Assembly: GCF_018139485.1 (NCBI RefSeq)
Contig: NZ_JAGSNF010000001.1
Coordinates: forward strand, 248,001 to 312,000
DNA: 64,000 bases
Source of the DNA: Phycicoccus avicenniae
Lineage (GTDB): Bacteria; Actinomycetota; Actinomycetes; Actinomycetales; Dermatophilaceae
Direction of reading: 5' to 3'
A program made the position numbers and the translations under genes. Below, piece after piece: positions 20,836 through 24,824 of the stretch. Position 1 is the stretch's first letter. Every line of letters starts with the position of its first letter. The notes below the pieces were generated by a model. The model searched no databases. It was not told the DNA's origin and saw only the letters and a program-made list of their open reading frames with translations.

Positions 20836-22563
20836 ATGAACTCGCTCGGCCTCGCCCTCGTCGGGGGGCTGATGATCCTCGCGGGGTACGCGCTGTACTC
20901 GCGCTTCCTCGCCACCCGGATCTTCGCCCTCGACGACTCCCGGCCCACCCCGGCGCACGAGCTCGAGGACGGGGTCGACTTCGTCCCGACGAACAAGTAC
21001 GTCCTCTGGGGCCACCACTTCACCTCGGTCGCGGGTGCCGCGCCGATCGTCGGTCCCGCCATCGCGGTGATCTGGGGCTGGCTGCCGGCCTTCCTCTGGG
21101 TGACGATCGGCACCGTCTTCTTCGCGGGGATGCACGACCTCGGCGCGCTGTGGGCGTCGGTGCGCAACAAGGGCCAGTCGATGGGGGCGCTCTCCGGCCG
21201 CTACATCGGGGGCCGCGGGCGCAACCTCTTCCTCGTCGTCATCTTCCTCCTGCTGCTCATGGTCAACGCGGCCTTCTCGGTCGTCATCGCGGGGCTGCTC
21301 GTCTCCACCCCCACCGCCGTGATCCCCACGTGGGGGGCCCTGGTCGTCGCGCTGGCGGTCGGTCAGGCGATCTACCGGTTCCGGTGGCGGCTGCCGCTCG
21401 TCTCGGTCGTCGGCGTCGTGGCGCTGTACTCCCTCATCTGGGTCGGCGACCAGGTCCCGCTCGCCCTCCCCGAGACGGTCGCCGGGCTGCCGGACACCTC
21501 GGTGTGGATCGTCCTGCTCTTCGTGTACGCGGGCGTGGCATCGCTGCTGCCCGTCTGGGTGCTCCTGCAGCCGCGGGACTACATCAACGGGCTGCAGCTC
21601 TTCATCGCCCTCGGCATCCTCTACGGCGCCGTGCTCGTCGCCCGCCCCGAGGTCGTCGCACCCGCGGTCAACGGCAACGTCCCGGAGGGCACCCCCTCGA
21701 TCGTCCCGCTCCTCTTCGTCACCATCGCGTGCGGTGCCATCTCCGGCTTCCACGGCATGGTGAGCTCGGGCACGAGCTCCAAGCAGCTGGAGAAGGAGAC
21801 CGACGCCCGCTTCGTCGGCTACTTCGGCGCGGTCGGCGAGGGGCTCCTGGCGCTCGGCGCGATCATCGCGGCGACCGCCGGCTTCCGGACGCTCGCCGAC
21901 TGGGAGGAGGTCTACTCAGCCTTCGGCGAGGGCAGCGTCGGCGCGTTCGTCTCCGGCGGCGGTGCGATCGTCGAGAGCGGGCTGGGCCTGCCGCAGTCGC
22001 TGTCGGCCACCATCCTCGCGACGACGGCGATCCTCTTCGCGGCGACGACGATGGACACCGGCGTGCGGCTCCAGCGGTTCGTCGTCCAGGAGATCGGCGA
22101 TCTCGCGGGGGTCCGGCTCGACAAGGGGCTCGCCACGCTCGTCGCGGTGGGCGTCGCGCTCGCGCTGACCTTCGGGGCCGGGGCGGACGGCTCGGGCGGG
22201 ATGCTCATCTGGCCGCTCTTCGGCACGACGAACCAGCTGCTCGCCGGGCTCACCCTGTCCATCGTCGCGATCATGCTGCTGCGGCGTGGACGCACCGCCC
22301 TGCCGGCGCTCGTGCCGCTCGCCTTCGTCGGCGTCATGACGCTCTACGCCCTCTTCATCCAGCTCGGGACGTTCTGGTCCGAGCGCAACTGGCTGCTCCT
22401 CGTCCTCGACCTCGTCATCCTCGTCGCCTCGCTGTGGGTCATGGTCGAGGCTGTCTCGGCGATGCGCGCCGCCCGCCGGGGTGGAGGCGACGAGGACGAG
22501 CCGGCCGAGCGCGAGGTCGCCGCGTCGGGCGGGCCCCGGCCCCCGCGGCGCGACGACGCCTGA
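20836..22563 (+). CDS. cstA: CstA family transporter (carbon starvation protein)
   Basis: 575 residues, the shorter actinobacterial form; E. coli CstA has about 700. At least twelve hydrophobic segments are seen. Family hallmarks include KYVLWGHHFTSVAGAAPIVGPAIA near 60-83, IACGAISGFHGMVSSGTSSKQL in the middle, and PLFGTTNQLLAGL towards the end. CstA-type proteins take up pyruvate or peptides under nutrient limitation. The ATG at 20836 has a GGAGA ribosome-binding site 5 bases upstream, better than the ATG at 20815. It is followed after 6 bases by a Cys-Cys-tail protein and then an ArsA-like ATPase, which look like accessory subunits. Confidence 0.9.
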   Translation: MNSLGLALVGGLMILAGYALYSRFLATRIFALDDSRPTPAHELEDGVDFVPTNKYVLWGHHFTSVAGAAPIVGPAIAVIWGWLPAFLWVTIGTVFFAGMHDLGALWASVRNKGQSMGALSGRYIGGRGRNLFLVVIFLLLLMVNAAFSVVIAGLLVSTPTAVIPTWGALVVALAVGQAIYRFRWRLPLVSVVGVVALYSLIWVGDQVPLALPETVAGLPDTSVWIVLLFVYAGVASLLPVWVLLQPRDYINGLQLFIALGILYGAVLVARPEVVAPAVNGNVPEGTPSIVPLLFVTIACGAISGFHGMVSSGTSSKQLEKETDARFVGYFGAVGEGLLALGAIIAATAGFRTLADWEEVYSAFGEGSVGAFVSGGGAIVESGLGLPQSLSATILATTAILFAATTMDTGVRLQRFVVQEIGDLAGVRLDKGLATLVAVGVALALTFGAGADGSGGMLIWPLFGTTNQLLAGLTLSIVAIMLLRRGRTALPALVPLAFVGVMTLYALFIQLGTFWSERNWLLLVLDLVILVASLWVMVEAVSAMRAARRGGGDEDEPAEREVAASGGPRPPRRDDA

Positions 22564-22569
22564 CCTCCG

Positions 22570-22854
22570 ATGACCGGGGACGCGACGCGCACGGGGACCG
22601 CGGGCCGGCTGCGGGCCGTCGCGGACGTGCTCGGCGACGTCCTCGCCGGGCCGTACGCGCGCACCTTCGCCCGGGCCCGGCAGGACGAGGACGACCTCTT
22701 CATGGTCGTCGTCATGGCCGAGGCGCTCGGCGTGCCCAACCCGGCGAGCTACTACACCGTCGAGCTCCTGCCGGTCGTCTACGACCAGGTGCACGACTGG
22801 CACCGCCGGATGGGCCTGGACCGCAGCCCGTTGGACCACTTCTCGTGCTGCTGA
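22570..22854 (+). CDS. Cory-CC-star type small protein ending in Cys-Cys
   Basis: 94 residues ending FSCC-stop, with the Cys pair as the last two residues. The central helix-rich part (GPYARTFARARQDEDDLFMVVV, then VELLPVVYDQVHDWHRRMGL) matches what I remember of the cory-CC-star family in corynebacteria and relatives. It lies between cstA and an ArsA-like ATPase with almost no spacing. In E. coli the CstA partners YbdD and YjiX are also small proteins ending in Cys-Cys, so an equivalent role as a metal- or thiol-dependent partner of the transporter is attractive, although sequence similarity to YbdD is not evident. Confidence 0.78.
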   Translation: MTGDATRTGTAGRLRAVADVLGDVLAGPYARTFARARQDEDDLFMVVVMAEALGVPNPASYYTVELLPVVYDQVHDWHRRMGLDRSPLDHFSCC

Positions 22855-22898
22855 CCCCGGGCGCGACCGTGCTGACCGGGGCCCGGCGGTGCTGAACG
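22849..22898. repeat. Imperfect ~20-bp triplication at the gene junction
   Basis: TGCTGACC at 22849, TGCTGACC at 22870 and TGCTGAAC at 22890 begin three similar G/C-rich units. The run spans the last codons of the Cys-Cys gene and the GTG start of the ArsA-like gene. Confidence 0.5.
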
Positions 22899-23917
22899 GG
22901 GTCGCCGACGGGCGGGAGGTCGTCTTCGTCGGCGGCAAGGGCGGCGTCGGGAAGACCGCGGTCGCCTCCGCGCTCGGGCTGGCCCTCGCCAGGACGGGGC
23001 GACGGGTGCTCGTCGTCTCGACCGACCCCGCGCACAACCTCGGCCACCTCTGGGGGCGGCCGGTCGGGGACTCCGTCGTCGAGCTCGCGCCGCTGCTCAC
23101 CGGGCTCGAGATCGACCCGGCGCGCACGACCGACGAGCATCTGCGGGCGGTCCGCGAGACGATGCAGCGGCTCATGCCCGAGCAGGTGCACGGCGAGGTC
23201 GCACGGCACCTCGAGCTCGCCCGGGACGCCCCGGGCACCCACGAGGCGGCCGTCCTCGAGCGGATCGCCGAGGTGCTCGAGCGCCGTCAGCCCGACCAGC
23301 TCGTCGTCGTCGACACCGCGCCGTCGGGGCACACCTCGCGGCTCGTCGCGCTGCCGGAGCTCATGCAGGCCTGGACCGAGGGGCTGCTGCGCCGACAGGA
23401 CCGGTCCGCCCGGTTCGGCGCGGCCCTGCGGGGGCTGCAGCGCCGGGGCTCCGGCGGGCGGACCCCGGACGCGGGGGAGCGGGCGGCGGCCGACGTCCTC
23501 GGCAGCCCGCCGCGGCCGGGGGACGGGCCGAGCGACCGGCGGGGGCGACGGGACGCCGAGATCCGGGCGATCCTCGACCGCCGACGGGCGCGCTTCGCGG
23601 ACCTGCGGGGGCTGCTGCAGGACCCCGCTCGCAGCGCCTTCGTCATCGTCCTGGCCGCCGAGCGGCTGCCCGTCCTGGAGTCGGTCGAGCTGCACGGGCA
23701 GCTGACCCGCGCCGGCATGCAGGTGGGGGCGCTCGTCGTCAACAAGCGCTCGCCCGCCGACGCCGGGGACCTCCTCGCCGCCCGCCGGCGGCTCGAGGAG
23801 GGCTACGTGGCGCAGCTCGCGGAGTCGCTGCCGGGTCTGCCGGTCACAGAGGTGCCGCTGCTGCCCGAGGAGATCCTCGGCGCCGAGGGGCTCGGACGGC
23901 TCGCGGCGTACCTCTGA
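22889..23917 (+). CDS. ArsA/Get3-like ATPase linked to CstA
   Basis: 342 residues, a single-domain ArsA-family ATPase. The deviant Walker A GGKGGVGKT (about 15-23), switch I STDPAHNL (45-52) and switch II DTAPSGHTSRL are intact, so it should bind and hydrolyse ATP. The middle (about 190-230) is a long Gly/Arg/Pro-rich linker without hydrophobic pattern, unlike the client-binding helices of Get3. No arsenic genes are near, which argues against arsenite export. In context it probably serves the CstA/Cys-Cys protein unit, much as the GTPase YjiA accompanies YjiY-YjiX in E. coli. GTG 22889 is the only reasonable start. Confidence 0.82.
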   Translation: MLNGVADGREVVFVGGKGGVGKTAVASALGLALARTGRRVLVVSTDPAHNLGHLWGRPVGDSVVELAPLLTGLEIDPARTTDEHLRAVRETMQRLMPEQVHGEVARHLELARDAPGTHEAAVLERIAEVLERRQPDQLVVVDTAPSGHTSRLVALPELMQAWTEGLLRRQDRSARFGAALRGLQRRGSGGRTPDAGERAAADVLGSPPRPGDGPSDRRGRRDAEIRAILDRRRARFADLRGLLQDPARSAFVIVLAAERLPVLESVELHGQLTRAGMQVGALVVNKRSPADAGDLLAARRRLEEGYVAQLAESLPGLPVTEVPLLPEEILGAEGLGRLAAYL

Positions 23918-23947: not shown

Positions 23948-24649
23948 TCAGCGGGCGGTGTCGCCCCCGGAACCGTCCTCGGCGTCCTCGTGGCTGCCGT
24001 TCGCCTCGTGGCCCCACTCGCCGGTGACGATCCACACGACCCGCTCGGCGACCGAGACGGCGTGGTCGGCGAACCGCTCGTAGTACCGGCCGAGCAGCGT
24101 GATGTCGACGGCCGCCTCCGTGCCGTGCTTCCAGTCGCCGCCGGTCACCTTCTCGAAGAGGTGGCGGTGCAGGTCGTCCATCGCGTCGTCGTCGCGCTCG
24201 ATCTCGCGGGCGCCCTGGATGCTGCGGTCGGCGATGACCGAGCCGCACTTCTCGACGATGAGCTCGGCGACCTGGCCCATCTCGCGGAACGTCGAGCGCA
24301 GCTCCGGGGGGACGGCCGAGTCGGGGTAGCGCAGGCGGGCGACCTTGGCGATGTGGCGGGCGAGGTCGCCCATCCGCTCGATGTCGCTGCTCATCCGCAT
24401 GCTCGTCACGACGACGCGCAGGTCGGTCGCGACGGGCTGCTGGAGGGCGAGGAGGTCGAAGGACAGCAGGTCGATCTGCTCGCGCTTGGCGTCGATGTCG
24501 GCGTCGGCGGTGATGACGGAGTCGGCGAGGGCGACATCGGCGTCGAGAAGGGCGGTCGTGGCCCGGGTCATCGCCGAGGCCGCGAGGTGGGTCATGTCCA
24601 CGAGGCTCTCGGCGATCCGGTCGAGCTCGTCGTGGTAGGCCTTGCGCAT
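23948..24649 (-). CDS. phoU: Phosphate signalling protein PhoU
   Basis: 233 residues made of two three-helix repeats. Metal-binding signatures are seen as MSSDIERMGDLARHI in the first repeat and RYYERFADHAVSVAERV in the second. PhoU restrains the PhoR/SenX3 kinase and the Pst transporter when phosphate is plentiful. The start at 24649 (MRKAYHDELDRI) is the family's normal N-terminus; a longer frame upstream crosses the PHO-box-like site and is rejected. It is divergent from senX3-regX3. A short acidic tail (GSHEDAEDGSGGDTAR) ends the protein. Confidence 0.93.
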   Translation of the reverse strand: MRKAYHDELDRIAESLVDMTHLAASAMTRATTALLDADVALADSVITADADIDAKREQIDLLSFDLLALQQPVATDLRVVVTSMRMSSDIERMGDLARHIAKVARLRYPDSAVPPELRSTFREMGQVAELIVEKCGSVIADRSIQGAREIERDDDAMDDLHRHLFEKVTGGDWKHGTEAAVDITLLGRYYERFADHAVSVAERVVWIVTGEWGHEANGSHEDAEDGSGGDTAR

Positions 24650-24735
24650 CACAGGTGGGGGTCCTCCGGTCGTGGTGGGTCGGGCGTCGCCGGGCAGGGG
24701 GCGGCGCGCTCGCGTCGCCGATCGTGCCAGCCCGC

Positions 24736-24764
24736 GGTGAACCCGGCACGCCGTCGAGGTGAAC
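24736..24764. promoter_or_regulatory. PHO-box-like direct repeat between phoU and senX3
   Basis: GGTGAAC occurs at 24736-24742 and 24758-24764, 22 bp apart. Read on the minus strand these are GTTCACC units separated by two turns of 11 bp, as in the PhoP/RegX3 boxes known from Streptomyces and mycobacteria, with a degenerate middle unit. The place between phoU and senX3 suits phosphate control of both transcripts. Confidence 0.65.
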
Positions 24765-24824
24765 ATCGGGCGACCAGGCCGGACGCGGAGCCGCAGATGG
24801 TCGGCCCCCGCTCCCGGCCCACCG

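Follow-up and report, generated by a model that had tools for sequence, protein, structure and literature searches.

A CstA-CstX-ArsA operon in Phycicoccus avicenniae and the cysteine-pair partners of CstA carriers

The window considered here, a 64,000-nucleotide stretch of the Phycicoccus avicenniae genome (contig NZ_JAGSNF010000001.1, positions 248,001 to 312,000), carries three neighbouring genes that encode a carrier of the CstA family, a small protein ending in Cys-Cys (CC), here called CstX, and an ATPase of the ArsA/Get3 type. That these genes belong together as a unit is all but certain, and the operon belongs to a kind that is already in print, the CstA-CstX-ArsA operons of Castillo and Saier (2010; PMC2963123), which the original prediction, made from the sequence of the window, had missed. 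Comparison with other CstA loci leads us to a tentative generalisation, possible rather than probable, that most CstA proteins use a dithiol or selenol-thiol helper which occurs in at least three unrelated forms (the tail of YbdD, the tail of CstX and a thioredoxin-like protein). Where CstX is present, CstA would also be coupled to an ArsA-type ATPase, sometimes a half-inactive heterodimer, and the family would be a redox-gated one in which the helper may exchange disulfides with an invariant cysteine of CstA. No report of such a dithiol-partner pattern was found in the open literature, subscription papers and supplements lying mostly outside the search.

The operon in the window and its published relatives

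The three genes lie on the same strand (Table 1), with gaps of 6 bp between cstA and cstX and of 34 bp between cstX and the ATPase gene. The start of cstA is placed at the ATG at 20836, which a GGAGA precedes at a distance of 5 nt; the longest open reading frame runs from 20815. The ATPase gene starts with GTG. The carrier matches PF02554 with 442.8 bits (gathering score 27, E 2.6e-132) and falls below the E. coli CstA equivalog NF011590 (226.5 bits, cut-off 1188); it is of the short CstA type. CstX matches the NCBIfam family NF041419, cory-CC-star, with 120.4 bits (cut-off 80) and no Pfam family, PF04328 (YbdD/YjiX) included; its gene ends in the stop codon TGA. The ATPase scores 193.9 bits against the GET3/ArsA/TRC40 model TIGR00345 (cut-off 135) and falls below the arsenical pump ATPase model TIGR04291 (122.1 bits, cut-off 650), having one domain, with the motifs GKGGVGKT at 16, STDP at 44 and DTAP at 142. 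Profile matches and gaps agree with the original prediction of three tightly spaced genes for a CstA carrier, a 94-residue Cys-Cys protein and a single-domain ArsA-like ATPase with an intact P-loop and switches. Between them the three proteins contain only three cysteines, namely Cys299 of CstA, within TIACGAISGFH, and Cys93 and Cys94 of CstX; the ATPase has none.

Table 1. Genes of the CstA-CstX-ArsA operon, numbered from the first letter of the window
Feature	Position	Strand	Basis
cstA (CstA-family transporter, short type, 575 aa)	20836..22563	+	PF02554
cstX (CstX / cory-CC-star, 94 aa, ends Cys93-Cys94)	22570..22854	+	NF041419
Single-domain ArsA/Get3-like ATPase (342 aa)	22889..23917	+	TIGR00345 and motifs

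With an adjacent CstA gene, a CstX of about 90 aa and a single-domain ArsA, the locus is a CstA-CstX-ArsA operon; the published operons hold the same three genes, with a CstX of ~90 aa and a single-domain ArsA of ~330 aa (PMC2963123). Castillo and Saier described 26 CstA-ArsA associations, CstX being present in 24 of them and never without CstA, and found largely matching trees for CstA, CstX and ArsA; two species had two CstX and two had adjacent ArsA pairs (PMC2963123). From size, place and co-occurrence we infer that their CstX is the NF041419 family. Theirs is the only account of CstX together with CstA that we found in the open literature, where a search for cory-CC-star by name returned no paper. 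The available text of their article mentions neither the Cys-Cys end of CstX nor a thioredoxin-like member, and contains no occurrence of YbdD or YjiX (PMC2963123).

A further comparison is the arsenite pump ArsA-ArsB, in which, as in the window, a membrane carrier goes with an ATPase of the ArsA fold. The ArsA of E. coli is a two-domain protein in which three cysteines are essential (PMC2963123), whereas the window ATPase is single-domain and cysteine-free. There are no ars genes among the three neighbouring proteins scanned; arsR was not searched for.

The unit across genomes and phyla

Conservation of the unit was assessed in a phylum sample of 149 genomes and an overlapping class sample of 197 genomes, gene distances in the latter being taken from coordinates. 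In the phylum sample CstX occurs in 14 genomes (11 above the cut-off), CstA in 36 and YbdD in 13. ArsA adjoins CstX in 14/14 of the CstX carriers and CstA does so in 13/14, the exception (G108) having its CstA on a separate contig and its CstX 541 bp from a contig end; this linkage exceeds what chance would give. The remaining nine CstA genomes comprise seven with a distant CstA without visible partner, one with a long CstA without YbdD and one with a fragment. In the class sample CstX adjoins CstA in all nine CstX genomes. There are 22 loci with a CC-tailed CstX (the window, 11 further from the phylum sample, seven further from the class sample and three from plasmids of Pseudochrobactrum, Paracoccus and Cytobacillus, these being the three examined out of six plasmid records), and each has one adjoining ArsA; the 20 that contain CstA all have exactly one CstX and one ArsA. 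The claim that the three genes are one unit was thus checked against its opposite, that the Cys-Cys and ArsA-like genes lie mostly away from cstA, and the result favours the unit.

The class sample contains 72 CstA genes above the cut-off, spread over 71 genomes, and their partners are YbdD (47), CstX (9), a protein with vicinal cysteines described below, the vicinal-CC protein (7), or none of these (9). When short and long types are assigned from the shape of the Pfam match, all 16 short CstA have CstX or the vicinal-CC protein, and all 56 long ones (two of them fragments) have YbdD or no listed partner. One genome, G428, has two CstA genes, a short one with CstX and a long one with YbdD. The idea that a genome has either CstX or YbdD but never both was given up, since 0/149 phylum-sample genomes have both but G428 does. 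YbdD is absent from 198 genomes of another phylum and from five CstX genomes of other phyla, so these genomes do not bear on the rule.

Outside the phylum the operon usually takes a different form. Two relatives found in the phylum sample served as queries for a genome scan; the best 80 of its 139 confirmed places were kept, and these come mostly from Chloroflexota and also from Acidobacteria, Desulfobacterales, Methylomirabilota, Bacteroidetes and others, with CstA inside the fetched stretch in 61/80. The usual arrangement is two CstX with two ArsA, found in 51 of the 63 non-CC loci with CstA and replaced by another in 12, some of which are truncated at contig ends; L022 and L034 represent one genome twice. 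None of the CstX of these scan loci ends in CC, a lone cysteine near the end (e.g. DLCDQ) occurring in 22/149, and Cys-Cys is thus not a requirement of every CstX. The CC and non-CC forms are nevertheless related (hhalign 90%, P 1.7e-6), and a CstX relative below the cut-off in the control genome Haloferax volcanii extends the family to archaea, as in Castillo and Saier.

Copy numbers of CstX and ArsA tend to match. Within the pairs, the first ATPase has SVDP in 77/77 and DLVP in 76/77, and the second STNP in 77/77 and DTAP in 75/77. This asymmetry is as expected of a heterodimer with one altered site, and the change of the switch I Asp to Asn in the second ATPase suggests that each heterodimer has one of its ATP sites altered.

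Additional genes were seen beside some of these operons. In one paired locus (L040:4864-5619, minus strand) a protein of ~250 aa with one hydrophobic N-terminal segment is encoded antisense between CstA and CstX; it matches no Pfam family and is kept in all 12 compared loci of one group of paired loci. In the window, a convergent PhoU gene (23948-24766) lies downstream of the ATPase gene, and upstream of cstA on the minus strand (16732 to ~20734) are two adjacent hypothetical proteins which by eye look like diverged copies, the one nearer to cstA having no Pfam match.

Cysteine pairs in other CstA partners

The gene order in E. coli is cstA then ybdD, with no adjoining nucleoside triphosphatase (NTPase) gene, and btsT then yjiX and yjiA. 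These systems resemble the window in that a CstA-family carrier is followed by a small protein ending in Cys-Cys and, for btsT-yjiX, in that the third gene encodes a P-loop NTPase, the GTPase YjiA, as the original prediction had stated. They differ from it in their long CstA, in a YbdD that is unrelated to CstX in sequence and in YjiA being a GTPase of another family. To our knowledge, E. coli CstA is the only carrier among those considered for which transport has been demonstrated, and it needs YbdD for pyruvate import. Its CstA-dependent pyruvate uptake is 13% of wild type without cstA and 20% without ybdD (PMC5847655).

The YbdD/YjiX proteins form the DUF466 family. Some of its members have Cys-selenocysteine as their last two residues, and for these a redox role has been proposed by analogy with thioredoxin reductase (PMC4607533). 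The Cys-selenocysteine family has been tabulated as KCU-star (PMC9312934, PMC13188914); E. coli YbdD scores 70 bits against the KCU-star model, below its cut-off of 85. Each of the 47 YbdD genes in the class sample has a CstA gene or a CstA fragment within 500 bp, and among 13 actinobacterial YbdD ends 11 are CC and two RCP. The expected E. coli-type pairing of CstA with a small, usually CC-ended protein is borne out by these counts, and so is the lack of sequence relation between the two small proteins, hhalign giving CstX and YbdD a probability of ~1%. A likeness by eye in GM-x-x-D, considered as a sign of distant homology, finds no support in that comparison and was rejected. PF04328 has no match in the window genome, and a sequence search of the PDB returned no relatives of YbdD. 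Viral contig scans for CstX and YbdD gave one contig, with YbdD. A separate 10.5 kb record named Streptomyces laculatispora (NZ_CP120994.1) holds a YjiX that shares 90% identity with the E. coli protein; the record is perhaps contaminated.

An NTPase of the YjiA or ArsA type does not generally accompany these proteins. Across 50 distinct YbdD/YjiX loci, 38 of them actinobacterial, a YjiA-type GTPase adjoins in two (E. coli btsT-yjiX-yjiA and Rahnella) and is absent from 48, and ArsA adjoins in none, NTPases of other types not being scanned; at one locus an annotated AAA ATPase lies 0.8 kb downstream. The scheme of the original prediction, a CstA carrier with a Cys-Cys protein and a P-loop NTPase, therefore holds for the recurring cysteine pair, and an NTPase of these two types as a general third part was rejected. 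Across the CstX loci scanned there is a single YjiA-like match, a COG0523 GTPase gene (L025:4245-5156, genome G026) convergent to the ArsA of a CC-type CstX operon.

Further partners without a curated family were found beside CstA, with or without CstX, and these too carry a cysteine pair; both of their forms score below the cut-off of every Pfam and NCBIfam model. The first is the vicinal-CC protein, ~140-160 aa long and with two adjacent, invariant cysteines close to the N-terminus, which directly follows all seven short CstA of the class sample that lack CstX. Across the 197 genomes its profile matches those seven and, weakly, one place away from CstA; it has no match in the plasmid collection or in the window genome, whose lineage has CstX and ArsA only. 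In seven CC-type loci the family lies between CstA and CstX, and in an eighth its gene is upstream of CstX at a contig start, with the cysteine part cut off; Cytobacillus has a shorter form without CC. The notion that a CC tail and a thioredoxin-like protein exclude each other was dropped on account of these eight loci, which leaves the weaker statement that at least one is present, kept for the window clade only.

The second form, with CxxC, adjoins CstA in 41/63 non-CC loci (40/61 scan loci) and in 0/20 CC-type loci, and CxxC is present in 36/45 members of the helper family found in the non-CC loci. A thioredoxin fold for this form is well supported by structure prediction: the model (pLDDT 83.6, pTM 0.75) has thioredoxins as its first 27 PDB matches in Foldseek, the best with E 1.1e-3 and probability 1.00 and none below E 1e-3. 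In 151 Chloroflexota genomes the CxxC profile has 14 matches with E<1e-10, of which 11 adjoin CstA, two adjoin ArsA and CstX and one is near a contig end, besides two weaker partial matches elsewhere. The vicinal-CC form likely shares the fold, to judge from profile alignment (hhalign 89%, P 2.3e-6, in an aligned part that excludes the cysteines; 67% with the first seven rows alone).

In a 46-row CstA tree the loci with CC-type CstX or the vicinal-CC protein form one clade of 24 (100/99), the window included, and the seven vicinal-CC-only loci are nested within it, grouped with three CstX loci (98/96). The simplest account is that different branches separately lost either CstX together with ArsA or the vicinal-CC protein. 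The column of Cys299 is cysteine in 122/122 CstA rows, 121 of them different, whether or not a partner is known.

Possible roles of the ATPase and the cysteine tail

A carrier with a dithiol redox helper and an ATPase docked through CstX is the best explanation we can give, and we rate it a little short of an even chance. The operon products would make up one transport complex with CstA as the carrier and CstX as a small helical adaptor, two copies of which would dock a dimer of the ArsA-type ATPase onto CstA. ATP binding and hydrolysis would open the carrier or supply it with energy, in the way that ArsA serves ArsB; the energising of CstA by ArsA, with CstX as the link, was first proposed by Castillo and Saier (PMC2963123), and a coupling role of CstX is likely. 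The Cys-Cys tail would act as a redox-active dithiol and not as a site for metal, and its oxidation state may gate or protect the carrier, possibly by exchange with the invariant cysteine of CstA. YbdD would fill the dithiol role in the long CstA type and the thioredoxin-like protein in other short CstA operons, the ATPase being an optional part of the scheme.

The original prediction had instead proposed that the ATPase loads metal or a thiol-bound factor onto the tail. Cys-Cys is a possible ligand of soft metals, and the COG0523 family, to which the YjiA encoded after E. coli yjiX belongs, has been studied for metal binding. The window ATPase, however, has no cysteine and CxxC occurs in 0/179 related ATPase sequences, so that loading through its own thiols is unlikely and finds no support; YjiA accompanies so few YbdD/YjiX proteins, the paired CstX keep their ATPases yet lack CC, and selenocysteine in YbdD kin favours redox chemistry (PMC4607533). 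We consider the idea very improbable.

The ATPase might also be a Get3-like assembly factor which captures the CstX hairpin or segments of CstA and aids insertion or assembly, with no role in transport. Its solved-structure relatives include Get3 proteins as well as ArsA, the CstX of one archaeal cluster is described as a protein with a single transmembrane segment (PMC2963123), and CstX is predicted to be all-helical, the window protein as a helical hairpin of low confidence (pLDDT 73, pTM 0.36). The highest hydropathy window of that protein, though, is only 1.25 and lies at residues 43-61, away from the tail, and the matching copy numbers of CstX and ATPase suggest a standing subunit. The missing CxxC counts here as well, this being the zinc site of Get3, and an assembly role seems unlikely to us.

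For the tail, the recurrence of a cysteine pair in unrelated CstA partners hints at thiol redox chemistry. This reading draws on the Cys-selenocysteine end in YbdD kin, on the thioredoxin fold of the helper and on a dithiol protein in every operon of one clade, CC-tailed CstX, the vicinal-CC protein or both being present in 24/24 rows of the window clade, although rows fetched via CstX carry it by construction and the independent part is the 16/16 short CstA of the class sample. That construction is one of several points that weigh against the redox reading. In the class sample 9/56 genomes with a long CstA, and in the phylum sample the seven with a distant CstA, showed no YbdD, CstX, thioredoxin-like or CC-ending neighbour. 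The CstA cysteine is invariant in such partner-free carriers also (16/16) and is therefore conserved irrespective of the tail. A thioredoxin-like gene was not detected in 22/63 non-CC CstX loci, and in 16/21 of the scan loci concerned CstA is flanked on either side by 800 bp or more, so that contig ends do not account for most of these absences. A PDB search with the vicinal-CC profile returned no thioredoxin (best E 0.34), and the CstX model, itself weak, has no PDB match. The argument as a whole is drawn from gene order, co-occurrence, alternative partners and motif conservation only, and co-occurrence is silent on biochemistry.

Partner-free CstA genes, and the paired CstX that dispense with CC, would also suit a structural or regulatory tether, with the small protein a passive stabiliser of CstA and the ATPase regulating rather than energising. 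Such a role fits less well with the exact CC end in 19/21 distinct genomes matched by the CstX family model in the two samples (the other two being the paired form) and in 3/3 plasmid loci, a count biased by the CC within the model itself, or with selenocysteine as the last residue of some YbdD relatives (PMC4607533); on balance it is improbable. A lipid anchor was considered and set aside. Rab proteins are anchored in this way through a C-terminal CC, but no comparable machinery is known to us from bacteria, and selenocysteine would not fit.

CstA is a starvation and pyruvate carrier which in E. coli requires a small partner protein, YbdD. A cysteine pair that recurs in unrelated partners, with selenocysteine in some, raises the question of whether transport by CstA depends on a helper dithiol being reduced or oxidised, and the CstX operons may represent a second transporter family driven by an ArsA-type ATPase.

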